Shown one piece after another: positions 2,877-62,332 of a DNA stretch of 64,000 nt. The stretch lies in the NCBI RefSeq assembly GCF_000350165.1, contig NZ_CAUI01000019.1, forward strand, positions 1 to 64,000. Reading direction: 5' to 3'. Source of the DNA: Halanaerobium saccharolyticum subsp. saccharolyticum DSM 6643. GTDB taxonomy: Bacteria > Bacillota > Halanaerobiia > Halanaerobiales > Halanaerobiaceae. How positions within the stretch are numbered: the stretch's first letter is position 1; every line of letters begins with the position of its first letter. Under the pieces are notes generated by a model. It was not told the DNA's origin. It did no database searches and saw nothing but the letters and a program-made list of their open reading frames with translations. Both the position numbers and the translations under genes were made by a program.

Positions 2877-4130
2877 TTGTTAAGTATTGGAATTGGATTT
2901 GTTATCTTAATTACGCTTATTATTCTAAAAGTAAGCATAGTTATTGCTGCACCACTGTCATCCATAGTAATTTTATATTTGAACAACTTAAATGTTTTAG
3001 AAGTGCTGAATACTCAATACTTACCTGGTTTTGCAGCTTTTGTTCAAGACTATTTATTTATATTCCTTTTGAGTGCTATTTTAGGAAAAATAATGGAAGA
3101 ATCGGATGATGCCACTTCGATTGGAGAATTTGTTTTAAATGTTTTATCATATAAGTATGCAGCTGTAGGTATTTTTTTTGTTAGTGTGCTTTTGTCATTA
3201 GGGGGGATTTCTGGATTTGTATTAATTTTTACCATTTATCCAATAGCTAAATCTGTTTTTGAAGAAGCTAATCTACCAAAATCTCTCATCTTAGCTGCTA
3301 TAGCAGGTGGAACAGTTGTTGTTGGACTTCCTTTACCCGGGAGCCCCCAGGTTCATAATTTAATCATGATGGATTATCTAAACACTTCTGCTTTAGCTGG
3401 TCTGGGTTTAGGATTAGTTAGCGTTTCCGCTGGAGCCTTAGCTGCTGTTTTATATTTAAGACACAGGAGTATTTCATTTCTAGCCCAAAGTGGGGGTAAA
3501 ATAAGTAAAAGTGTTTTGAAGAAGCCAGAACTTGCTAAAATGATGAACTTTATTACAGCCACACTGCCTTTATTGACAGTCTTTATTTTACTTGCAGTTT
3601 TATCAAAAGATCCAGTGCTCGCATTATTTTTAGGGGTTATAGTTTCGATAATTAAAAACTTTAAAAAAATAGATTTGTTTAAAATTTTAAATGAGAGTAT
3701 TTCAAACGCAGTTTTACCCTTGATGTTTGCCGCTTCTGCCATGGGTTTTGGTCGAGTTATTTCTTCACTGCCAGTGTTTAAGGGTTTTCTGCAGACTTTA
3801 TTAAACCTTCCGTTACATCCTTATTTATTAGTTGGTTTAATTACCAATATTGCAGCAGGACTCTTAGGAAGTGCCTCCGGAGGAATACTTTTAACATTAA
3901 GTACTGTTGGAGAAAATATAGTTCAGTTAGTTGATCCAGAAAAATTACATAGAATTACAATTATTGCTTCAACTGGTTTAGATACACTCCCGCACAATAG
4001 TTCTTATCTGGCAATGCTTGCCTATACAGGGCTTAAATTTAGAGAAAGTTATTTTGATTACTTTATTGTTACTGTTGTAGCACCTCTAATTTCTTTTGCA
4101 GTTGCTGTAATCTTTGCTTTGAACTTTTAA
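2877..4130 (+). CDS. GntP-like integral membrane permease
   Basis: A very hydrophobic 417-aa protein with about 11-12 predicted membrane segments. It resembles the GntP/citrate-transporter-like superfamily (gluconate and other organic anions), with conserved-looking re-entrant loops such as VGLPLPGSPQVHN and AGLLGSASGGILL and a C-terminal GLDTLPHNS segment. The substrate cannot be read from sequence. I start it at TTG 2877 because AAAGGAG (2863-2869) is correctly spaced before it. It stands alone, between the DsrE-like gene and yjbQ. Confidence 0.65.
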   Translation: MLSIGIGFVILITLIILKVSIVIAAPLSSIVILYLNNLNVLEVLNTQYLPGFAAFVQDYLFIFLLSAILGKIMEESDDATSIGEFVLNVLSYKYAAVGIFFVSVLLSLGGISGFVLIFTIYPIAKSVFEEANLPKSLILAAIAGGTVVVGLPLPGSPQVHNLIMMDYLNTSALAGLGLGLVSVSAGALAAVLYLRHRSISFLAQSGGKISKSVLKKPELAKMMNFITATLPLLTVFILLAVLSKDPVLALFLGVIVSIIKNFKKIDLFKILNESISNAVLPLMFAASAMGFGRVISSLPVFKGFLQTLLNLPLHPYLLVGLITNIAAGLLGSASGGILLTLSTVGENIVQLVDPEKLHRITIIASTGLDTLPHNSSYLAMLAYTGLKFRESYFDYFIVTVVAPLISFAVAVIFALNF

Positions 4131-4646: not shown

Positions 4647-5087
4647 ATGAGATATCCAGAAGCTACAGTAGGTGCGGTTATTTTAAATTCTGAAGCGAAA
4701 GTATTAATCTGCAAGTCAAATAAATGGAATCATAAATATGTAATCCCTGGTGGTCATATTGAGGCTGGAGAAAGTATGGAAGAAGCTCTTGTTAGAGAGG
4801 TAAAAGAGGAAACCGGACTCGATGTTTTTGAGATTGAACTGCTCGGTATTAATGAAAGCATTTATTCTGAATCATTTCAAAATAAGAAGCACTTCATCTT
4901 TGTTGATTTTATCTGTAGTAGTAAATCAAATGATGTAGTTTTGAACGAAGAGGCTCAGTCGTATGAATGGATTGATTTAACTGAAATTGAAAATTATAAT
5001 TTAGAAAAATTCACAACCAAGTTATTAAAAGAGTTAAGAAAAGGTAAAAAATCAAGATATAAAAAAGAAATAATTTATGGTCTTTAA
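4647..5087 (+). CDS. Nudix hydrolase
   Basis: A 146-aa Nudix-fold pyrophosphohydrolase. The Nudix box is complete at about residues 35-57: GGHIEAGES, then EALVREVKEETGL, supplying the REVxEE metal-binding glutamates. Substrates of such small Nudix proteins are nucleoside diphosphates linked to another moiety and cannot be assigned here. Its start lies one base after the yjbQ stop, suggesting translational coupling. The C-terminus is lysine-rich and without a recognisable extra domain. Confidence 0.85.
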   Translation: MRYPEATVGAVILNSEAKVLICKSNKWNHKYVIPGGHIEAGESMEEALVREVKEETGLDVFEIELLGINESIYSESFQNKKHFIFVDFICSSKSNDVVLNEEAQSYEWIDLTEIENYNLEKFTTKLLKELRKGKKSRYKKEIIYGL

Positions 5088-6219: not shown

Positions 6220-6894
6220 ATGAGTTTATTAAGTGAAATCAATTTATATAAAATAAAAGATATTGATAATCAAGTCAGTATAATAAGCTTATTAGGAAAT
6301 AGAAAGGATAGACTTTTATTAAATAGAAATGAAGTGGGAAGTGCTGCTGTTATAGGAGACATTGTTTTATTAGTTAAAAATGATAAAGATAATAATTTAA
6401 AACAAAGAAAAGCTATAAATTATTCTGTTAAAAAAGTTAAAGGGCGTTTTTCCGATGTTAAGGAATATAAATATCTTAAAATGAAAGTATTATATGATTT
6501 TAACCGTTATTATTTGAATAAAAAAGAAATTGAAGCAGTAGAAAAAGACAAAGATCATATTAAATTTGAAAGATTAATGGACAATAATAAAGAAGATATT
6601 AAAAAATTAATCACTTATAACAAAGATGAGAATGTAGAGCCATTTAATCATACAAACTATGAAGTCGAGAATATTTTAAATTCTAAAAAAATATTCAGCC
6701 AGGAAATAGGAAATAAATTTGATTGGGGCTGGAGTTTAATGGAAATTTATCAGATTGATAACGACAATTTTGTTAGTTTTAAACAGAGCAGCTATTTTAG
6801 GGAAAGACAGCGAGGAGAATTTTTTAAGATTAATAAAAAAGCTGTTGATTTTATGAGGACATTTGAAGATGATAAAGCTGATTTTTTAGATTAA
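6220..6894 (+). CDS. Hypothetical protein, charged, unknown
   Basis: A 224-aa protein that I do not recognise. It is rich in Lys, Asp, Asn and Ile, has no signal peptide or membrane segment, and the middle (about 60-140) looks helical and highly charged. The C-terminus has aromatic-rich patches (KFDWGWSLMEIY, SSYFRERQRGEFF). ATG 6220 is preferred over GTG 6211, since GAGGTGAAG at 6208-6216 acts as the ribosome-binding site. It is tightly spaced behind the D-cysteine desulfhydrase gene and is probably co-transcribed with it. Confidence 0.6.
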   Translation: MSLLSEINLYKIKDIDNQVSIISLLGNRKDRLLLNRNEVGSAAVIGDIVLLVKNDKDNNLKQRKAINYSVKKVKGRFSDVKEYKYLKMKVLYDFNRYYLNKKEIEAVEKDKDHIKFERLMDNNKEDIKKLITYNKDENVEPFNHTNYEVENILNSKKIFSQEIGNKFDWGWSLMEIYQIDNDNFVSFKQSSYFRERQRGEFFKINKKAVDFMRTFEDDKADFLD

Positions 6895-25594: not shown

Positions 25595-25618
25595 AGGCGG
25601 ATAATTCCGCCTTTTTTT
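25595..25618. terminator. Terminator between convergent genes
   Basis: AGGCGG, an ATAATT loop and CCGCCT, followed by T7. It ends the diguanylate cyclase gene, and its T run overlaps the last codons of the convergent regulator. Confidence 0.88.
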
Positions 25619-26393
25619 AATGGATTGTATCCAGATGCAAGTATCCCATCTTAATAGATCTAGCTATTGCTTGCACTATATTTGCTGCACATAATTTTTG
25701 ACAGATTTTATTGCGGTGGTATTTAATTGCAGCTTCAGATAGATTTAAATTTTCACTAATTTCTTTAATAGTTAAACCATTTGCAGAAAGCTTTAAAATT
25801 TTACTTCTAATTTCAGTAAGCGAATCACTATTTTCTTTGTAATAATTAATTGAATTTAAATCATTGCTAATTTTGCTGCGTAAGAGCTCTAGAATTAGTC
25901 GTAAATCTTCTTTTTTATTCTTAGTCAAATTGTCATTTAAAATGCACAAATAGGCACTTTTATTATTTGTTTTAACTGGAGCAGTTATACTCATCCAATG
26001 CTGTAAAAATTCGCAATAATTTTCATCCCCTAAAAAACAAACTGTTTCCTCTGTTTCCATTGCCAGAGAAACTGAATTAGTTCCACAACTTTTTTCTGTG
26101 AAGTATACTCCTTCTTTGAGTTTATCTAAGTAACTTATCTTTTTAATTTTTTTAGGTATATATGATTTAATTAAAATGCCTTTTTCATCAAATAATAAAT
26201 AGCAATTATTATCTAGATGATAATTTTTAACAATATATTCAACGTTATGATTAAAGCTTTTGATTAGCTTCTCATTTGAGTTATGGGATTGTTCCAAAAT
26301 TTCTCTAGCTGCAGTTTCTTGAGGGAAATTTATTTTTTTGGAAATACCCATTTGGTAACATCTGAACCAAGAATTTTTTAAGCTGCTTAACAT
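25617..26393 (-). CDS. GAF-like/LuxR-type transcriptional regulator
   Basis: A 258-aa regulator. Residues 1-180 resemble the GAF-type sensory N-terminus of AcoR-like sigma-54 activators: SWFRCYQMGI, then LLFDEKGILI, KLKEGVYFTEKSCGTNSVSLA and VCFLGDENYCEFLQHWMSITAPV. Instead of an AAA+ domain, the C-terminus (about 195-255) is a LuxR-type helix-turn-helix: ILKLSANGLTIKEISENLNLSEAAIKYHRNKI. It is the last gene of the minus-strand unit containing the HAMP-DUF4388 and binding-protein genes, so it probably reads the same signal. The target may be the divergent ABC operon; this is inference. Confidence 0.78.
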   Translation of the reverse strand: MLSSLKNSWFRCYQMGISKKINFPQETAAREILEQSHNSNEKLIKSFNHNVEYIVKNYHLDNNCYLLFDEKGILIKSYIPKKIKKISYLDKLKEGVYFTEKSCGTNSVSLAMETEETVCFLGDENYCEFLQHWMSITAPVKTNNKSAYLCILNDNLTKNKKEDLRLILELLRSKISNDLNSINYYKENSDSLTEIRSKILKLSANGLTIKEISENLNLSEAAIKYHRNKICQKLCAANIVQAIARSIKMGYLHLDTIH

Positions 26394-26416: not shown

Positions 26417-27748
26417 TTACATTTTTTGTGGAAAAGGTATAATATTGTCTAAATTATAATCTTTGCTTTTATTTAATTCTTCTGCTCTTATTGTAATTAG
26501 TCCAGCTACTATTAAACGATAAGCAATTTCAAAAGTTTTTTCTGGATTCCAAGCTAAAATTTTTCTTAAATCTTGTAGTGTTTTTTGACCATTAATCAGA
26601 TTGAGAATAGTTTCTTCATCACTGTTGAGATTAATCGAATCAGCAGCTCTTTTAATTTTTGATACAGCTGGGTAGATAATAATATTTTCTGAAGGAATTA
26701 ACTGCTTGAAAATTTTTTGACTCTGAACTTGTCGAGCCAGATTTAATAATAACTCATTAAACTTATTATCAATAATTTTTTTATCGCTTTTTAAATTGGG
26801 GCTAAATTTAAATTCTCCCCTTTGCCAGTGCAAAAATTCAAAAAGGGCTTTTTCACCTTTTGAATCATCTAAAATAGCATTAATAATCTCTCCATTTTTA
26901 AAATAGATTATTCCGAATTTATTCTTTTGCTTTAAGACAAGGCCTCCATTATGTTTAGCAGTATTTAATAATTTTAAGAGAGTAGTAATATTAAAGATCT
27001 TCAAATCTCCTTCATAACTGATAGCTTTTTTTGCAACTTTACTGACAAAATATTTTAAATCTATTCTCATTTCTTCAAGTGTTTCTGCTAAAAAAGAAAA
27101 TTCATCTTTGCTTTTGACTGAGATAGGATTATTAAAATCTCCCTCAGCAATTTTTCTTGAACTTTCAACTAATTTATTAATTGGTTTAACTATATTCTTA
27201 GAAATAATTAATGAAATTAGGAGTCCGAAAATTATAAAAATTATAGACATTAGATATATCTGATAACGAGTATTATAAATCATCTGGTTTAGAAATGATA
27301 AAGAATATCTAAATTCTAAAAATCCCCAAAGGTTGTCATATGCAATTATTGGAGCTTTAACATTCAAATAGTCATTATTAAATTCTAATCGATTGCTTTT
27401 CGCATTAGAATCAATATTTATTTTCTGTCCAATAGTCGATTCATCAGTAGAAATTTCGATTATACCCTGAGCATTTGTCACAGAAACTCTGTTTATATTA
27501 GAATCAGGGTCATTTTTTAAGTTGTTAATAATGCTTGTAAGGGAGGAATAGTTTTCCATAACTATTGGTTCAGCACTATATTTTACTATTATATTTGCCA
27601 GCAAATTACTACTTGAAGTAATCTGATCCTTATAAGCTTGTTTTGTCTCTTTTAAGAGGGTATAACTTATACCAGTAACAGTTGTGATTATTAAAAGCGA
27701 GATTATTATACTTAATTTTAAATAAAAAGGAATTTTAATATCACTCAA
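26417..27748 (-). CDS. HAMP-DUF4388 membrane signalling protein without kinase domain
   Basis: 443 aa: a membrane segment at about 10-30, an extracytoplasmic loop (about 30-165), a second membrane segment (about 165-187), a HAMP linker (KNIVKPINKLVESSRKIAEGDF) and a DUF4388/PATAN-like domain (about 250-325: GDLKIFNITTLLKLL, GIIYFKNGEIINAI, KGEKALFEFLHWQRGEFKF). No histidine kinase, GGDEF or methyl-accepting domain follows; the tail resembles a helical winged-type region. It starts at TTG 27748 after GGAGGAG, overlapping the end of the binding-protein gene by 8 bases. It probably relays the state of that binding protein. Confidence 0.72.
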   Translation of the reverse strand: MSDIKIPFYLKLSIIISLLIITTVTGISYTLLKETKQAYKDQITSSSNLLANIIVKYSAEPIVMENYSSLTSIINNLKNDPDSNINRVSVTNAQGIIEISTDESTIGQKINIDSNAKSNRLEFNNDYLNVKAPIIAYDNLWGFLEFRYSLSFLNQMIYNTRYQIYLMSIIFIIFGLLISLIISKNIVKPINKLVESSRKIAEGDFNNPISVKSKDEFSFLAETLEEMRIDLKYFVSKVAKKAISYEGDLKIFNITTLLKLLNTAKHNGGLVLKQKNKFGIIYFKNGEIINAILDDSKGEKALFEFLHWQRGEFKFSPNLKSDKKIIDNKFNELLLNLARQVQSQKIFKQLIPSENIIIYPAVSKIKRAADSINLNSDEETILNLINGQKTLQDLRKILAWNPEKTFEIAYRLIVAGLITIRAEELNKSKDYNLDNIIPFPQKM

Positions 27749-28763
27749 TATTTTCTCCTCCAAAATATATTTCCTGCTGCCAGAAAGCAAGGTTCTTTTT
27801 TTTATTTAGTGCAGATGATTTTAAATTATAATCAATTAAATTAGCATTTTCTAATTTAATTGATGCTTCAGGTATTTTAGCTAAAAAATTTGTAGGTAAA
27901 CGATATTCTCCAATTTCAGAATAGAGATTTTGTCCTTTTTCACTTAACATAAAATCAACAAAGCTTTTTGCTTTATCCAGATTATGACTGTCTTTAATAA
28001 TTGCCATACCACCAATTTCATAACCGGTTCCTTCGGCTGGTATAATTAGTTCTAACTTATAGCCCTCTTTTTGAAGCTTTTGTATATCATGGCTAAAAGA
28101 AATTCCAACTGCAGAATGACCTAAAGCAGTTAATTTACTAGCCATAGCGCCACTGTTTGTATACTCTTTGATATTTTGACTAATCTGTTTAAGTATTATT
28201 TTAGCTTCTTCATTTGAGAAACTTTGCAAGACTGTAGAAAGAATTGTATAACCGGTTCCGGAAGAAACTGGGTTGGGAATAGTAATTAAATTTTTATACT
28301 GAGGATCTGCTAAATCGCGCCAGCTTTTGGGTGGATTAATCCCTAGCTTTTCTAGTTTTTTATTATTAACAGCAAAACCAATAGAGCCAATATAGATTCC
28401 CCACCAGCGATCTTGATTATCCATATATTCATAAGGTATCTGATCTTTATAAGGGGATGAATATTTATAGAATCGATCTTCTTCTGCAGCTAAATAATAT
28501 AGTTCAGCTGGACCACCAAATAGAATATCAACTTCCGGTCTATAGTCTTTTTGTCTTCTTAAAATATTCAATAAAATTCCGGTTGATTTGCGAACTAATT
28601 TGGTTTTAATACCACTATAGTTTTCAAAAGCATTAATATAGGTTTGGGCCTCATTTTGCTGTAAAGCAGTATAAATTATTAATTTATCTTCTGCAGCTTT
28701 AGTAGTAGAACTGAGTAAAGAAAGTAATAAAAAAGCAATTAATAATTTTCTGCATGTTTTCAT
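27741..28763 (-). CDS. Exported ABC-type solute-binding protein, probable sensor partner
   Basis: A 340-aa binding protein with an N-terminal signal peptide (LLIAFLLLSLLSSTTKAA). The fold family is the iron(III)/Fbp-type extracellular binding proteins: IIYTALQQNEAQTY, VDILFGGPAEL, GIYIGSIGFAVN, PPKSWRDLADPQY, PVSSGTGYTILS and GTGYEIGGMAI. It is clearly homologous to the transporter binding protein at 30031-31023. Unlike that one it has no permease or ATPase beside it, but overlaps the HAMP-DUF4388 gene (8 bases) and the DUF2294 gene (4 bases). That argues it presents the ligand to a membrane sensor rather than a transporter. Confidence 0.8.
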   Translation of the reverse strand: MKTCRKLLIAFLLLSLLSSTTKAAEDKLIIYTALQQNEAQTYINAFENYSGIKTKLVRKSTGILLNILRRQKDYRPEVDILFGGPAELYYLAAEEDRFYKYSSPYKDQIPYEYMDNQDRWWGIYIGSIGFAVNNKKLEKLGINPPKSWRDLADPQYKNLITIPNPVSSGTGYTILSTVLQSFSNEEAKIILKQISQNIKEYTNSGAMASKLTALGHSAVGISFSHDIQKLQKEGYKLELIIPAEGTGYEIGGMAIIKDSHNLDKAKSFVDFMLSEKGQNLYSEIGEYRLPTNFLAKIPEASIKLENANLIDYNLKSSALNKKKNLAFWQQEIYFGGENIE

Positions 28764-29140
28764 TTCAACTGTTCCTTTAATCTTGAAATAATAATTGTTT
28801 CATTTAACTCTGGATTAGTATCGATAGTAAGAGATAAGACCTGAGTATTTAATTTGTTTTCTAACATAAACTTGAGTACATTTTTTATTCCGTTCATTTC
28901 TTTTATTTTTAATTGTTTTAATAAAATCCTGCCCTCTTCCGTCTTTGCGAATTCTTCTTCAGCTGGGCTTAAATTACCGCAGCTTCTTATTATAATCAAA
29001 TCATCAACTAAATATATTTTTAAATGATTTGATTTTTTACCCCAGTATTTTTTTTCTACTTTCCTAAAAATAACAGCGATTTCTTTCTCCCGAGGAGACA
29101 TTTCTTCTTTATCAGTGTTTCTAACAGAATTACTCTTCAT
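28760..29140 (-). CDS. DUF2294-like protein, downstream of the leader RNA
   Basis: A 126-aa soluble protein that I assign to DUF2294 from its paralogy with the gene at 29361-29735: IYLVDDLIIIRSCGNLSPAEEEFAKTEEG matches the paralogue's IIEDNILIKEKGVLTLAEQQLAKEETG. It ends with LSLTIDTNPELNETIIISRL. Function unknown. It overlaps the binding-protein gene by 4 bases and is preceded by a structured leader with a terminator, so expression of this whole unit appears conditional. Confidence 0.7.
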   Translation of the reverse strand: MKSNSVRNTDKEEMSPREKEIAVIFRKVEKKYWGKKSNHLKIYLVDDLIIIRSCGNLSPAEEEFAKTEEGRILLKQLKIKEMNGIKNVLKFMLENKLNTQVLSLTIDTNPELNETIIISRLKEQLK

Positions 29141-29175: not shown

Positions 29176-29240
29176 AAAAAACAGAAAAACCATCACCAAA
29201 AAATCCCATAGAAAAAGCAAGGAATTATTTGATGATGGTT
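29176..29240 (-). terminator. Terminator in the leader of the second DUF2294 gene
   Basis: A 13-bp stem (29240-29228 with 29200-29188, one G-T pair) and a U-rich tail, 36 bases before the coding sequence. This is the off state of the leader RNA. Confidence 0.82.
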
Positions 29241-29293
29241 ACTCTCTAGACAGCCCCCTACCTAAAGTAGTTTGCCGTGTATCTAGTTACCAT
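29176..29293 (-). ncRNA. Structured leader RNA with mutually exclusive terminator (candidate riboswitch)
   Basis: Read on the minus strand, nested helices occur: ATGGT (29293-29289) with ACCAT (29239-29235), CTAGA (29286-29282) with TCTAG (29250-29246), CGGC with GCTG, and CTAC with GTAG. The ACCAT strand is also the start of a 13-bp terminator arm (29240-29228) pairing with TTTGGTGATGGTT (29200-29188), followed by TTTCTGTTTTTT. Both folds cannot form together. I do not recognise the family; the GGCAAAC segment only faintly recalls the GEMM class. The same bases also encode a possible 11-codon peptide (29293-29258), but without a ribosome-binding site. Confidence 0.7.
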
Positions 29294-29310
29294 TTTGTTG
29301 TGTCTAATAT

Positions 29311-29339
29311 ATATTAACATTAAATTTAATTAAAAGCAA
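29311..29339 (-). promoter_or_regulatory. Putative promoter of the leader RNA
   Basis: On the minus strand: TTGCTT (29339-29334), a 17-base spacer and TAATAT (29316-29311). Transcription would start about 10 bases before the first helix. Confidence 0.5.
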
Positions 29340-29360: not shown

Positions 29361-29735
29361 CTATTTGCTCATTATCTTTCTTTCTAAATTTTCTTCTAGA
29401 GAAAAAACAATTATTCTTTCACCATTTTCTGTGCTGATATCAGAATGAACAGCTAGTACATCAAGAGAGGTAATATCTTTGATTAGAGTTGATAAAATTT
29501 CACGAGAGTTTTCTATTAACTTTACTCTTAGTTCTTTGATTAATTTAACACCCGTTTCTTCTTTAGCAAGTTGTTGCTCTGCTAGAGTTAAAACTCCCTT
29601 TTCCTTGATTAAAATATTGTCCTCTATAATATATGTTTTAATATTCTGTGGTCCTCGCCCAATATATTCTTTTTCAAATTTCATTATAAGTTCTGAGATT
29701 TCAGCTTCAATTTGTCCTTTAGTCTTTTTTGACAT
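29361..29735 (-). CDS. DUF2294 family protein
   Basis: A 124-aa soluble protein with the DUF2294 layout: KTKGQIEAEISELIMKFEKEYIGRGP, TYIIEDNILIKEKGVLTLAEQQLA, and a C-terminal LDVLAVHSDISTENGERIIVF. The biochemical role of DUF2294 is not established. ATG 29735 follows AAGGTGAA; the longer frame to 29765 has no site. It is a paralogue of the next gene in this direction, with the leader RNA lying between them. Confidence 0.75.
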   Translation of the reverse strand: MSKKTKGQIEAEISELIMKFEKEYIGRGPQNIKTYIIEDNILIKEKGVLTLAEQQLAKEETGVKLIKELRVKLIENSREILSTLIKDITSLDVLAVHSDISTENGERIIVFSLEENLERKIMSK

Positions 29736-30030: not shown

Positions 30031-31023
30031 ATGAAAAATTTATTTTTAAGTTTATTATTAGCAGTTTTAATTATTGGTTTAATGTCAGCACCAATTTTAG
30101 CAGAAAGTGTTAATGTTTATACCAGTCTTGACGAAGAGTTAGCCCGTACAGTATTCGAAAGGTATCAAGACGAGACAGGTGTAGAGATTAGATGGGTTCG
30201 TTTATCTACAGGAGAAGCAGTTTCTAGAATGATGGCAGAGTCTGCAAATCCTCAGGCCAGCATCTGGGTTGGGGGAGTAGGACTTGGACATATTCAGGCT
30301 AAAGATAGTGGACTTACAATTCCATTTGAAGCAGAAAATGCACAGCATGTTCCAGCAAACTTTAAAGATCCAGATAATTATTGGACAGGGATTTATGCTG
30401 GTCCACTTTGTTTTGTAAGCAACACTGGTCGTTTAGAAGAGCTTGGTTTAGAAGCGCCTAAATCTTGGGCAGACATAGTAAAGCCAGAATATGAAAATCA
30501 AGTTCAGGTTGCAAATCCAGGAACATCTGGAACATCTTATAATGTTTTAGCTACTATGGTACAAATCATGGGTGAAGACGAAGCTTTTGAATATATGAAG
30601 AAGTTAGATAGAAGTGTAGTTCAGTATACAAGATCAGGTTCAGCTCCTGGTAAAAACGCAGCTATTGGTGAAGTACCAATTGGAATTGGGTATGCACATG
30701 ATCAGGTAAAACTTAAATCACAAGGTTATCCTCTAGAAATCACTTTCCCAGAAGAAGGTACAGGTTATGAGGTAGCATCTATTTCTTTAATCAAAGGTGG
30801 CGACGAAACTGAAACAGCTAAAGAGTTATATAACTGGTTGTTAAGTGAAGAAGCAGCACAAATATATGCTGATACATTTGTAGTGCCCTTTAGAGATGCT
30901 GAATTACAGCCTGGTGCAGTTCCAATTTCTGAAGTAAACACAATTGATCAGGATGATGTTTGGGCAGGAAAAAATAAAGAAAGACTTGTTGAAAGATGGA
31001 ATGATGAGATTTATAGCCAGTAA
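30031..31023 (+). CDS. ABC importer solute-binding protein (iron(III)-type family)
   Basis: A 330-aa exported binding protein with a signal peptide (residues 1-24, ending PILAES). Family features: VNVYTSLDEELARTVFERY, WIVGGVGLG-type loop, PKSWADIVKPEYENQVQVANPGTSGTSYN, GIGYAHDQVKLKSQGYPLE and EEGTGYEVASISLIKGG. The family transports ferric iron and also some organic anions and polyamines, so iron is likely but not certain. First gene of the operon with permease and ATPase; a hairpin after it would raise its level relative to the membrane parts. AGGAGG ribosome-binding site. Confidence 0.88.
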   Translation: MKNLFLSLLLAVLIIGLMSAPILAESVNVYTSLDEELARTVFERYQDETGVEIRWVRLSTGEAVSRMMAESANPQASIWVGGVGLGHIQAKDSGLTIPFEAENAQHVPANFKDPDNYWTGIYAGPLCFVSNTGRLEELGLEAPKSWADIVKPEYENQVQVANPGTSGTSYNVLATMVQIMGEDEAFEYMKKLDRSVVQYTRSGSAPGKNAAIGEVPIGIGYAHDQVKLKSQGYPLEITFPEEGTGYEVASISLIKGGDETETAKELYNWLLSEEAAQIYADTFVVPFRDAELQPGAVPISEVNTIDQDDVWAGKNKERLVERWNDEIYSQ

Positions 31024-31048
31024 CTTTTAGATAGAAAGATATAGGAAA

Positions 31049-31084
31049 TTGATGGGCGGATTAATTTCTGCCCATCAAAATTTT
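31049..31084 (+). terminator. Attenuating hairpin between binding-protein and permease genes
   Basis: TTGATGGGCGG (31049-31059) pairs with CTGCCCATCAA (31068-31078), followed by a weak T tract. It probably allows partial read-through. Confidence 0.75.
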
Positions 31085-31098
31085 AAAGGGGTGAAAAG

Positions 31099-32739
31099 AT
31101 GCAAAGAAATAAAGATTCTATTACTAGAATAACTGTAACAGTGATATTTTCTTTAATTGCTTTATTTGTGGTATATCCTTTAATCAAAGTAATTATAGAA
31201 AGTGTCATGCCAAATGGCAGTTTTTCTTTATCTGAATATAAATACATATTTGAAAAAGAATGGCTACGTAGAACATTCTTTAATAGTATAAGATTGGGAG
31301 TTATTGTTGCAACTTCATCAACTATTGTGGGTTATATAGCAGCTTATAGTCTTTATAAAGTTAAATTACCAGGTCGTGGTTTTTTTAGACAAATTGTTAT
31401 GTTACCCCTTATTTCTCCACCTTTTATGCTTACAATTTCAATAATTTTACTTTTAGGGAGAAATGGTTTAATTACAAAAAAGATTTTAGGAATTACTAGT
31501 TATAGCATTTATGGGCTGCATGGTTTAGTTCTTGTTCAGACTTTATGTATGTTTCCAATCGCTTATCGAGTTTTAACAGGTGTTTTAGCAAGGATAAGTC
31601 CGGAGCTAGAAAATGCTGCTTTAAATTTAGGGAGTACAAAATCTTATGTTTTTCGCTCAATAACTTTTCCACTATCTATTCCAGGAGTAGCAAGTGCCTG
31701 GCTTTTAGTATTTGTAACATCTATAGCTGATTTTGCTAACCCAATGGTTATTGCAGGTAATTATGATGTACTTTCGGTTCAAGCTTACCTCCAATTTACA
31801 GGTATGTACAATATTCCAAGAGGTTCAGCTTTAGCAATTATGCTCTTGATCCCAGCTCTAATTGCTTTTATAGTAGAAAAATATTGGATTTCAAGAAAAT
31901 CATTTATAACAGTAACTGGAAAGCCAACTGGGGCTAAACAAGATATGGTCTCAAAGACCACTAAAAATTTATTGCTTGGATTTTTATCTTCTCTAACATT
32001 TATTATACTTTTATTTTATTTAACAGTGATAGCAGGTTCTTTCTTTAAATTATGGGGAATTGACTATTCTTTGACATTAGAACATTTCAAATATTCTTGG
32101 GATGTAGGTTTTAATAGTATTAAAGATACTATATTCCTAGCGAGTGTAGCAACACCATTTACTGGTCTTTTAGGGATGATAGTTGCTTACTTAGTTGTTC
32201 GTAAAAACTTTTATGGAAAACATATACTACAATTTTCTTCATTACTAAGTTTTGCAGTGCCTGGAACTGTTGTTGGTATAGGATATGTTTTAGCTTTTAA
32301 TGAAAAACCATTTCTATTAACTGGTACGGCAGCAATAATAATCCTATGTTTTATTTTTAGAAATATGCCGGTTGGTTTAGAAGCAGGGATTGCCTCCTTA
32401 AAGCAGATTGATCCTTCTATAGAAGAAGCTTCCACAGATTTAGGTGCAGATAGTGCTTATACTTTTAGTAAAATTACTTTACCACTAATTAAGCCAGCTT
32501 TCTTTTCAGGACTTTCTTATAGTTTTGTTAGAGCTATGACTGCAGTAAGTGCGATTATCTTTTTAGTTTCTGCAAGATGGAACCATCTGACAACTCTAAT
32601 TTTAGCTCAGACAGAGATTATGAGATTGGGAGCAGCAAGTGTATTATCCTTAATTTTAATAGCGATAGTTATGTTTGTCTTTTATTTAATGGGTAAATTT
32701 ATTGGTGATGATGAAGATTTAAGTGAAATGATGACTTAA
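31099..32739 (+). CDS. ABC importer permease, fused double-module (FbpB-like)
   Basis: 546 aa with about 12 membrane segments in two homologous halves, the FbpB/AfuB arrangement of iron(III) importers. Each half carries an EAA-type loop contacting the ATPase: ENAALNLGSTKSYVFRSITFPLSIPG in the first and IEEASTDLGADSAYTFSKITLPLIKP in the second. Membrane protein of the cytoplasmic membrane. Starts after AAAGGGGTG; 17 bases separate it from the ATPase gene. Confidence 0.9.
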   Translation: MQRNKDSITRITVTVIFSLIALFVVYPLIKVIIESVMPNGSFSLSEYKYIFEKEWLRRTFFNSIRLGVIVATSSTIVGYIAAYSLYKVKLPGRGFFRQIVMLPLISPPFMLTISIILLLGRNGLITKKILGITSYSIYGLHGLVLVQTLCMFPIAYRVLTGVLARISPELENAALNLGSTKSYVFRSITFPLSIPGVASAWLLVFVTSIADFANPMVIAGNYDVLSVQAYLQFTGMYNIPRGSALAIMLLIPALIAFIVEKYWISRKSFITVTGKPTGAKQDMVSKTTKNLLLGFLSSLTFIILLFYLTVIAGSFFKLWGIDYSLTLEHFKYSWDVGFNSIKDTIFLASVATPFTGLLGMIVAYLVVRKNFYGKHILQFSSLLSFAVPGTVVGIGYVLAFNEKPFLLTGTAAIIILCFIFRNMPVGLEAGIASLKQIDPSIEEASTDLGADSAYTFSKITLPLIKPAFFSGLSYSFVRAMTAVSAIIFLVSARWNHLTTLILAQTEIMRLGAASVLSLILIAIVMFVFYLMGKFIGDDEDLSEMMT

Positions 32740-32756
32740 TTGTAGGAGGAATAAAA

Positions 32757-33848
32757 ATGAATGATACAGCAGTTAAATTAACTGATATTACAAAAATATT
32801 TAAATCAAAAAAATCAGATGATAAAGTCATTGCAGTTAATGACTTTGACTTAAATATAGAAGAGGGAGAACTTGTAACGCTTTTAGGACCTTCTGGATGT
32901 GGAAAAACTACAACTTTAAGAATGGTTGCTGGATTTGAGACTCCAAGCTCAGGTAGCATATATTTAGGTGGAGAAGATGTTGTTAATAGGCCTGCCAATA
33001 AAAGGGATACAGCAATGGTTTTTCAAAGTTATGGTCTCTTTCCCCATATGACCATTTTTGAGAATATAACCTATGGTTTAAGATTTAAAGATATGAATAA
33101 AAAAGCTGTTAAAGAAAAAGCAGCAGAAATTATGGAACTTGTAGGATTAAGTGGTTATGGTAATAGAAACCCAGGAGAGTTATCAGGAGGTCAGCAGCAG
33201 CGGGTTGCACTTGCAAGAGCTTTAGTAGTTGAACCAAAAGTTTTATTATTTGATGAGCCGCTTTCTAATCTTGATGCAAAATTAAGAGAATCAATGCGGG
33301 ATGAAATTAGGAAACTTCAAAAAAGGCTTTCGATTACCTCTTTATATGTAACTCATGATCAGATTGAAGCAATGAGTATTTCAGATAGAATTGTAGTTAT
33401 GAATAAAGGTGAAATTGAACAGATTGGATCTCCAGAAGAAATTTATTATAAACCTGACACAAAATTTGTAGCTGATTTCATTGGTAAGGTTAACTTTCTG
33501 AGTGGAAAAGTCAGTAAAAAAGAAGGAAACTTAATCGATATTGATTTAGGTTACAATAAAATTGAAGGAATTGAACAAAAAATAGAATTAAATAAAAACG
33601 AAGAAGTTACAATTGCAGTAAGACCTGAATCATTAATTGTGGATGAACAGGGTAAAGGTTTTCTAGATGCTGAAGTAATAAGAAAAACATATCTAGGATC
33701 TTATTATCAATATGTACTAAAAATGCCTGATGGAAATATTATTACGGTTGATGTAGTTAATCCAATTAATAAAAAAGAATATAATGTTGGCGGGGAAGTA
33801 AGCATTTCTTTTCCTGTTGATGAGCTTCATGTTATAGCAGAAGCCTAG
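32757..33848 (+). CDS. ABC importer ATP-binding protein
   Basis: 363 aa. Walker A GPSGCGKTT, Q-loop MVFQSYGLFPHM, signature LSGGQQQRVALARAL, Walker B VLLFDEPLSNLDA and the switch histidine in YVTHDQIEA. A C-terminal TOBE-like region follows from about residue 240 (VRPESLIVD). It belongs to the FbpC/PotA-type group and energises the permease next to it. Confidence 0.92.
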   Translation: MNDTAVKLTDITKIFKSKKSDDKVIAVNDFDLNIEEGELVTLLGPSGCGKTTTLRMVAGFETPSSGSIYLGGEDVVNRPANKRDTAMVFQSYGLFPHMTIFENITYGLRFKDMNKKAVKEKAAEIMELVGLSGYGNRNPGELSGGQQQRVALARALVVEPKVLLFDEPLSNLDAKLRESMRDEIRKLQKRLSITSLYVTHDQIEAMSISDRIVVMNKGEIEQIGSPEEIYYKPDTKFVADFIGKVNFLSGKVSKKEGNLIDIDLGYNKIEGIEQKIELNKNEEVTIAVRPESLIVDEQGKGFLDAEVIRKTYLGSYYQYVLKMPDGNIITVDVVNPINKKEYNVGGEVSISFPVDELHVIAEA

Positions 33849-57016: not shown

Positions 57017-58057
57017 ATGGAAAAAATAAAATTAACTGATTACAGTAAAACTTCTGGTTGAGCAGCTAAGATGGGCCCTAGGGCTCTGGCGCAGGTTCTG
57101 CGTCACGTTGATTTTCCTGCTGATCCGGAAAAATTACTGATTGGTTTAGATAAAGCAGATGATGCGGCTGTTTATAGTTTAACTGATGATATTGCTTTGA
57201 TTCAGACTCTTGATTTTTTCACACCAGTTGTAGACGACCCTTATTTATTTGGTCAGATTGCTGCTGCAAATGCTTTAAGTGATGTATATGCGATGGGGGG
57301 TCAGCCCATTTTAGCAATGAATATTGTAGGTTTTCCTTCCTGTTTAGAGGGAGAAATTCTTTCGCGTATTCTGCAGGGTGGTGCTGATAAGGTAAAAGAA
57401 GCAGGAGCCAATTTATGTGGTGGTCACACTGTAGTAGATGAAGAACCTAAATATGGGCTTTCTGTAACAGGAATAGTTCACCCAGATGATTTGCTCAGTA
57501 ACTCTGGCATTAAAGAAGGGGACCTTATTCTCTTAACGAAACCACTGGGAACAGGTGTTATGATTTCTGCACTTAAAGGTGGCTTTATAGAAGATGCTGA
57601 AAATAATCCAGCAGTAAAGTCGATGTTAACTTTAAATAACAGAGCTTTAAACTATTTTGATCATTATCAGATCAATGCCTGTACAGATGTAACCGGTTTT
57701 GGCTTGATTGGACATTTACTTGAAATGTCTGAAAACAGCAGTTTAGAAATTCAAATTGATGCTGAAGAAATCCCTGTTTTTGCAGATGCAAGAGAATTTA
57801 GTGAATTTGGCCTGCTGCCAGCTGGTGCTTATAAGAATAGAGATAATTATCAGGAATTTGTAGCTGAAAGTGGTGAAAGAGATCAGACACTTTATGATTT
57901 AATGTATGATCCCCAGACTTCAGGTGGGCTTTTAATTTCAGTGGCGGAAGAGGATGCTGCCGATTTACTAATTGATCTTTATACTGAAGATATTGAAGCT
58001 GCTGTGATTGCAAAAGCTAAAAAAGGTGAAAAAGGTATTAAAATAAATTGGAACTAA
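57017..58057 (+). CDS. selD: Selenophosphate synthetase, selenocysteine-containing
   Basis: Makes selenophosphate from selenide and ATP. The 346-aa reading frame crosses an in-frame TGA at 57059-57061 (residue 15): LTDYSKTSG-Sec-AAKMGPRAL places it exactly at the active-site Cys/Sec of SelD. Further motifs: LIGLDKADDAAVYSL, QTLDFFTPVVDDPYLFGQIAAANALSDVYAMGG, LCGGHTVVDEEPKYGLSVTG and DVTGFGLIGHLLE. A hairpin CGCAG-GTT-CTGCG (57090-57102) lies about 30 bases after the TGA and is a possible SECIS. ATG 57017 at the expected position; without Sec decoding the gene would look truncated to start at 57071. Confidence 0.95.
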
Positions 58058-58123: not shown

Positions 58124-58185
58124 AATAGTTGCAATTGATTGTGAAAAAAATAATTTTATGAAAATAGAATATTATGGTTGAAGGA

Positions 58186-58370
58186 TACAGGAGAGAGCAT
58201 AATATTATGCCACCGAAGGAGTAAAATTTTTATTTGCTCAAAATAGAAATTGAAACTCTCAGGTAAAAGGACCGTATCTGGACATAACTCTGGAAAGTTT
58301 GTTATTTCAAAAACACCGACGGAGCAGTCTGTTTTATACAGATAATCTCTCAGGTTTACGGACAGAGCAG
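58186..58370 (+). promoter_or_regulatory. Tandem glycine riboswitch
   Basis: Two glycine aptamers in tandem. Core segments: GGAGAGAGC, CACCGAAGGAGTAA, ACTCTCAGGTAAAAGGAC, then CACCGACGGAGCAGT, ATCTCTCAGGTTTACGGAC. The end of the second aptamer runs into the arm of a terminator. The unit probably acts as an on-switch with glycine, so that glycine reductase is made when glycine is available. Confidence 0.92.
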
Positions 58371-61006: not shown

Positions 61007-62332
61007 ATGAGTAATAAACTTAAAATTGTTCATTATTTAAATCAGTTTTTTGGACAGATTGGGGGAGAAGACAAAGCAGATATTCCACCACGTATAGAAG
61101 AAGGATCTATAGGTCCCGGAACTGCTTTAAATAATTCCTTAGGTGAAGATGCAGAAATTGTGAATACAATTATTTGTGGTGACACATTTTTTAATGAAAA
61201 TCTTGAAGAAAGCAAAAGTGAAATAAAAGAAATGTTAGAAGAAATAAAACCGGATTTATTAATCGCAGGACCTGCCTTTAATGCAGGTAGATATGGTGTA
61301 GCCTGTGGAACAGTTGCTGAGATTGCTAAAACTGAATTAGGGATAGATGTAGTTTCTGGTATTTATCCAGAAAATCCTGGTTATGAAATGTTTAAACAGT
61401 ATGCATATTTTGTTGAAACTCCTGATTCTGCAGCGGGAATGAGATCTGCACTTCCTGACATGATAAAAATTGTTAAGAGCTATATTGAAAAAAATGGTGA
61501 ATTAGGCAGTCCTGAAGAAGAGGGATATATGTCTCGAGGAGTCAGAAAAAATATTTTTGCTGAAGAAAGAGGAGCAGCTAGAGCTATTAAAATGCTTGTA
61601 AAAAAACTGGATGGGAAAGAATTTGAAACTGAATATCCAATGCCTGTTTTTGACAGAGTAGATCCAGTTGATCCAATTAGTAACATGACTGAGACCAAGG
61701 TTGCTCTTGTTACTTCAGGAGGTATTGTTCCTAAAGGAAATCCAGATCATATTGAATCTTCCAGTGCTTCAAAATATGGAGAGTACAGCTTGGAAGGTGT
61801 AATGGATCTTGATGAAGCTAGCTATGAAACTGCTCATGGTGGATATGATCCAGTATGTGCAAATAAAGATTCCGATCGTGTTCTTCCTGTAGATGTTATA
61901 AGAGATCTTGAAAAAGAAGGAGTAATTGGTGAACTTCACAATAAATTTTATACAACAGTAGGTAATGGTACATCTGTTGCAAATGCAAAAGCATATGCAC
62001 AGGAGATCGCGGAAAATTTACTTGCTGATGGGGTTCAGGCAGTTATATTAACTTCTACTTGAGGTACCTGTACACGTTGCGGTGCAACAATGGTGAAAGA
62101 AATTGAAAGATCTGGTATTCCAGTTGTTCATGTGGCAACAGTAGTTCCAATTTCAATGACAGTAGGAGCAAATCGAATTGTTCCAGCTATTGCCATTCCA
62201 TATCCTCTAGGGGATCCTGATTTAGGCAAAAAAGAAGAAAAAAAATTAAGAAGAGATATTGTGGAAAAAGCATTAGATGCTCTGCAGACTGATATTGATG
62301 AGCAGACAGTTTTTTCTGTTAATGAAGAATAG
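61007..62332 (+). CDS. grdB: Glycine reductase protein B, selenoprotein GrdB
   Basis: A 441-aa selenoprotein subunit of protein B. The in-frame TGA at 62060-62062 is residue 352, in ILTST-Sec-GTCTRCGATMVKEIERSG, the usual Sec position. A hairpin GTTGC-GGT-GCAAC (62076-62088) about 14 bases after the TGA, with a GGT apical loop like that of the E. coli fdhF SECIS, is a good candidate element. N-terminus KIVHYLNQFFGQIGGEDKA and VALVTSGGIVPKGNPDHIESSSASKYG are family-typical. Without Sec decoding it appears as two fragments. Glycine rather than sarcosine/betaine as substrate is inferred from the riboswitch. Confidence 0.95.

Follow-up and report, generated by a model that had tools for sequence, protein, structure and literature searches.

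A terminator-overlapping RNA leader beside mpsC genes, a probable transcription-attenuation switch of an inorganic-carbon locus in several bacterial phyla

The window, i.e., the whole stretch of 64,000 nt of Halanaerobium saccharolyticum DNA that was analysed, carries two DUF2294/MpsC genes on the minus strand, with a leader RNA between them on the same strand. The gene upstream of the leader is mpsC1 (29361-29732; PF10057, Pfam E 4.8e-34), and the first gene past its terminator is mpsC2 (28760-29140; Pfam E 3e-19). The operon of mpsC2 continues on the minus strand with an exported solute-binding protein (27741-28763; SBP_bac_6, E 1.1e-30), a HAMP and DUF4388 membrane protein (26417-27790; Pfam) and a LuxR-type (GerE) regulator with a DhaR-like N-terminal part (25617-26393; Pfam and neighbour annotation). 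No obvious carbon enzyme was found among these four products, and the target genes of the window alone do not display a carbon theme. The MpsC family was named after the mpsABC operon of S. aureus, which serves bicarbonate supply and in which mpsC is dispensable (PMC6689103). A divergent ABC transporter was located at 30031-33848 of the plus strand, i.e., a 2-aminoethylphosphonate-like binding protein, a fused permease and an ATPase. An ABC binding protein and permease also adjoin the mpsC operon at two other loci (L041 and L042).

The switch hairpin, an aptamer- or antiterminator-like leader of nested helices, was placed at 29293-29235 of the minus strand (AUGGUAACUAGAUACACGGCAAACUACUUUAGGUAGGGGGCUGUCUAGAGAGUAACCAU) by folding and by matches of the covariance models R2 and R3 described below. 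The P1 5' strand (AUGGU-A-ACU, 29293-29285), read from the sequence, has pairs that are kept in homologues. Folding and comparison with a homologue assigned the next three segments, i.e., a purine-rich internal loop with the P2 5' strand (AGA UA C ACGGC, 29284-29274), the AAA of an AAA/GGG internal loop with the P3 hairpin (CUAC-UUUAG-GUAG, 29273-29258), and the GGG of that loop with the P2 3' strand GCUGU and the loop CUAGAG (29257-29244). The P1 3' strand (AGU-A-ACCAU, 29243-29235) is common to leader and terminator, as judged from sequence, terminator overlap and energies, and P1 is closed by AUGGU (29293-29289) with ACCAU (29239-29235). The intrinsic terminator hairpin (29240-29188), recognized by sequence, folding and the overlap, pairs AACCAUCAUCAAA (29240-29228) with UUUGGUGAUGGUU (29200-29188) over 13 bp, and a U-rich tail follows in the sequence (29187-29175).

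Without the terminator, the 71-nt leader folded at -19.8 kcal/mol, against -9.9 (sd 2.4) for shuffled sequences (z -4.2), and none of 200 shuffles was as good. When the terminator was included, the ACCAU strand passed into it in the minimum free energy (MFE) structure (-40.4, z -4.7), and forcing P1 cost about 5 kcal/mol. An earlier note on this DNA had described nested helices with an ATGGT/ACCAT closing stem here, and had taken the ACCAT strand as the first part of a 13-bp terminator that excludes the other fold. The coordinates and helices were correct, and the mutual exclusion was borne out by the sequence and the MFE shift. The overall claim of that note is supported: the two DUF2294 (MpsC) genes enclose an unrecognised leader whose two folds exclude each other.

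In two related genera this leader occurs at the corresponding place, between the two mpsC genes, with compensatory changes. In a genome of the same family (G012; MAG Halanaerobiales bacterium Soudan_29, L032/L043), the whole divergent locus is kept, i.e., the ABC transporter in one direction and MpsC1-leader-MpsC2-binding protein-HAMP protein-LuxR regulator in the other. This leader and that of the window could be aligned over 55 nt with no gap, and they show five double-sided changes with the pairs kept. A covariance model built from these two Halanaerobiales leaders (R1) matched a third copy at the same place in a genome of another family (G026; E 6e-7). In searches of genome contigs, MpsC2 as query gave no match and the MpsC1 query succeeded. 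Searching relatives for the leader at the DNA level returned AT-rich chance matches only, and these were discarded.

A plausible promoter had been proposed directly upstream of the leader (TTGCTT-17-TAATAT). This promoter proved weak, because it matches the consensus at only 3+4 of 12 positions and was missed by the promoter scan. Among the homologous leaders, a promoter with at least 10/12 positions lies upstream in 8 of 26, compared with 0.8 expected. Attenuation through translation of a short peptide, MVTRYTANYFR, had been offered as a second explanation, and its frame is indeed present in the window. However, this ORF is not conserved in the homologues, since the G012 leader has no ATG start codon and the G026 leader reads ATG GTT AAC TAG, i.e., it stops at once, and no ribosome-binding site was recognized. 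A conserved short ORF with start codon and ribosome-binding site, the mark of a leader-peptide attenuator, was not found in the homologous leaders, and we give this explanation almost no credence.

Known RNA families were searched in Rfam. At the gathering cut-off, the whole window gave a tandem glycine riboswitch and a SECIS element only, with none at the leader, and twelve homologous loci gave no leader family. Relaxed searches of the window leader and two homologues returned sub-threshold chance matches only. The Rfam check proposed in the earlier note thus found no known riboswitch at the leader even at relaxed E-values, in agreement with its statement that the leader could not be matched to a known class. 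A resemblance to ykkC (CUAG...GUCCGAGAG) was dropped as no Rfam signal accompanied it. A PRD/CAT RNA-binding regulator, of the kind encoded at a BglG/LicT RAT locus, was not found by Pfam among nine neighbouring window proteins. No paper naming a leader of DUF2294/MpsC genes or an RNA that senses bicarbonate was found in a literature search that reached a minority of subscription papers and no bioRxiv preprints.

The tandem glycine riboswitch (RF00504 twice) was located at 58178-58367 of the plus strand, with a thioredoxin-like and glycine-reductase-like gene cluster 3' of it. The SECIS_4 element (62063-62100, plus strand) lies beside genes resembling selenoprotein glycine reductase, and a selD-like gene was found at 57071-58057. 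Because of the SECIS_4 element and the selD-like gene, genes with UGA-encoded selenocysteine are expected in the window, and the ORF calls would be cut there.

Twenty MpsC1 loci from many phyla were collected by MpsC1 search. Outside the order, R1 matched L048 alone (20.5 bits, E 0.027), where the leader sits exactly between two mpsC genes and overlaps the terminator that follows it. The same arrangement was recognised by eye 3' of mpsC1 in Elusimicrobia, Omnitrophota, Saganbacteria and Neomarinimicrobiota. A seven-sequence covariance model (R2) recovered L061 and L045, neither of which was in the model. With R2 and a 14-sequence model (R3), the range covers Omnitrophota, Elusimicrobiota, Saganbacteria, other Bacillota and further MAG lineages, and the element adjoins mpsC genes in five or more phyla of bacteria. 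RNA-only whole-genome searches with R2 and R3 gave matches in 17 new genomes, and an MpsC1 gene adjoins the match in 16 of the 17, although seven of these 16 come from one genus and the independent lineages are fewer. The sole blind match not near MpsC (L075, 24.7 bits) is a long palindrome and was not believed.

In the phylum of L048, the leader was detected after mpsC1 in four of six MpsC genomes (L048/L082, L083/L058, L084, L085), with a marginal match in L086 (E 0.76) and none detected in L087; the filters for large genome sets drop weak matches, and absence counts are unreliable. The L052 leader is weak (14.9 bits), and an RNA match in L070 (E 0.67) was not believed. Leaders in L050 and L056, which look right by eye and are unsupported by the models, were left out of the counts. 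So was a hairpin after mpsC1 in L051 (about 6465-6492, plus strand; UUCAA-AG-UCCUA...UAGGA-AG-UUGAA), which by eye is like the inner part of the leader, has no recognisable P1 and lacks model support. No match to MpsC1 was found in viral contigs. Each genome has one leader locus, and extra copies occur only inside that locus. In most genomes the leader follows mpsC1; in L098 and L099 it precedes that gene. The gene for PEP carboxykinase in L081 is preceded by two complete leader-terminator units in tandem (4838-4891 and 4952-5001, plus strand).

When 25 leaders were aligned to R3, an alignment that is fitted to the model, 77.4% of cells were paired, against 24-32% with the 3' partner slid. Double-sided changes were counted in 74 cells, against 6-15 when slid, and in none of 500 shuffles was the value reached. 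A MAFFT alignment, which is not fitted to the model, gave eight consensus pairs, five of them with double-sided changes. The covariation check proposed earlier therefore came out clearly positive. The intrinsic terminator starts inside the last leader strand in all 26 leaders tested, compared with 28 of 520 in a downstream-shuffled control. P1 forms in 29 of 29 hairpins folded alone, and the full-length MFE structure with the terminator loses it in 26 of the 29. A strand common to a conserved helix and a terminator, and a covarying secondary structure, i.e., the marks of a terminator/antiterminator leader, were both found.

Outside the Halanaerobiales, the leaders follow a plan of about GGN-AG-ACY-AA-GCAA-(AG or G)-hairpin-(AG or G)-UUGC-AA-RGU-AR-GCC, and the purines at unpaired positions are highly conserved. 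Halanaerobiales leaders do not have the G of the first mismatch, a G-A tandem mismatch in other phyla, so the window leader is a variant. This missing G-A mismatch after GGU, the AAA/GGG rather than AG/AG inner loop, and the failure of R1 alone to match any locus outside the order except L048 could mean that the two groups are separate look-alike inventions. However, L048 bridges them, sharing AGAUA/CUAGAG with the window and GGUUGAC/GUAAGCC with the others, and both groups have the position after mpsC1 and the terminator overlap in common. A separate origin is therefore improbable.

The genes directly 3' of the leaders are varied. MpsC2 was found there in the window and at seven loci (L041, L043, L048, L052, L079, L105, L106), GTP-dependent PEP carboxykinase at six (L045, L049, L078, L080, L081, and L077, which is cut by the contig end), and DUF4914 at three (L047, L100, L110); in L101 and its genus one small gene lies between. 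A gamma carbonic anhydrase-like protein (L044), a Na/Ca exchanger (L061), purE-mpsC1-accC (L102) and mpsC1-accC (L103) were also found in this place. Farther downstream are purC, purE, purK, beta and putative carbonic anhydrases, and accC. In L098/L102 a second leader precedes the gene for SbtA, a Na-dependent bicarbonate transporter; in L102 it lies at 2978-3039 of the minus strand (E 0.001), before SbtA (Sbt_1, E 2.5e-116), and is divergent from leader-purE-mpsC1-accC. Most enzymes beside the leaders use or make CO2 or bicarbonate. It is not obvious that an importer such as SbtA and the carboxylases would be wanted ON under the same condition. Similar carbon genes also adjoin MpsC1 without a detected leader (L053, L054, L059), so the theme may belong to MpsC1 and not to the RNA. 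DUF4914 (about 620 aa, without NCBIfam name) recurs beside MpsC1 (L047, L050, L100, L101, L111); it stands where other loci have PEP carboxykinase and may have a similar job.

We conclude that the leader is a candidate RNA family unlisted in Rfam, of the class of terminator/antiterminator leaders of an inorganic-carbon locus. Judged by sequence analysis, which supplied the folds, their mutual exclusion, conservation and covariation, the terminator overlap and the gene context, it probably acts as a transcription-attenuation switch of that conserved locus. From this evidence we infer the switching itself, its direction, its signal and its effector. During transcription by RNA polymerase, the nested hairpin would fold first. 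Without effector, the downstream terminator would capture the last strand of the hairpin, and transcription would end before mpsC2. An effector that stabilises the hairpin would block the terminator and let the operon be read, i.e., an ON switch. The most likely signal would be the supply of CO2 or bicarbonate. A small molecule bound directly, i.e., bicarbonate or a linked metabolite, comes near an even chance as the effector, and the MpsC1 protein encoded next to the leader is about equally likely. The riboswitch-like switching of the earlier note stands as far as the exclusive folds go, and homologues share the terminator overlap. Riboswitch in the strict sense, i.e., direct ligand binding, goes beyond this evidence, with a protein-bound antiterminator nearly as likely.

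MpsC1 as the effector would be an RNA-binding antiterminator acting on the hairpin as BglG/LicT act on RAT, with MpsC1 as the sensor and the RNA as its target site. We regard this as a serious possibility, although below an even chance. The adjacency of mpsC1 in 16 of the 17 blind matches and the single locus per genome, with extra leader copies confined to it, favour such a protein effector, and a single locus is unusual for a metabolite riboswitch. The hairpin is rod-like with purine internal loops, and its place mostly after mpsC1 and in L098/L099 before it recalls bglG, which is flanked by two RAT-terminators. However, MpsC1 as a whole is not a basic protein (median pI 7.9; 5.6 in the window) and is present in genomes without a detectable leader, which favours a small molecule. 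Its predicted fold (pLDDT 93.5) also has no clear PDB match; Foldseek gave no PDB match with E below 0.001 (best VIA Z 6.9), and no PDB chain was found by sequence. RAT hairpins of BglG/LicT/SacY likewise have internal loops, overlap a terminator and may adjoin their regulator gene, whereas the present hairpin is larger, the window neighbours include no such protein, and binding by MpsC1 is hypothetical. The ON-type terminating riboswitches, such as guanidine-I (ykkC) and fluoride, are similar in that the final strand of an aptamer-like hairpin competes with an intrinsic terminator, unpaired purines are conserved, copies occur in tandem and the genes belong to one physiological theme. They differ from this leader, which has no Rfam match, is a simple unbranched hairpin and is always beside one gene family.

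A fixed attenuator, in which the overlap sets a constant read-through ratio between mpsC1 and the downstream genes with no effector, would suit L093-L096 and L110, where the leader starts within a few bases of the mpsC1 stop codon and a polar terminator would suffice. We consider it a minor contender, because sequence and structure of the upstream hairpin, unpaired purines included, are kept over phyla, which a fixed terminator does not need, and some leaders are preceded by promoters of their own. In the mpsABC system of Staphylococcus, an MpsC family protein is likewise encoded next to a system for dissolved inorganic carbon, mpsC is preceded by a weak terminator and mpsA is lowered by 5% CO2, but MpsC was found dispensable there (PMC6689103, PMC8552792).

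The wide distribution of the element and its association with inorganic-carbon genes go beyond the earlier note. Outside cyanobacteria, little is known of how bacteria sense dissolved inorganic carbon. The leader may be a way in which these bacteria adjust carbon genes to carbon supply. It is a doubtful possibility that this hairpin represents the first RNA known to sense bicarbonate/CO2 or a metabolite reporting them. If true, it would control, in distant phyla, bicarbonate uptake along with PEP carboxykinase, carbonic anhydrases and the carboxylation enzymes of the biotin and purine pathways. The presence of the leader in several phyla, its readable ON fold and its coherent carbon genes make the carbon-sensing question directly testable, and provide a lead to the function of MpsC (DUF2294) and DUF4914, two uncharacterised families.
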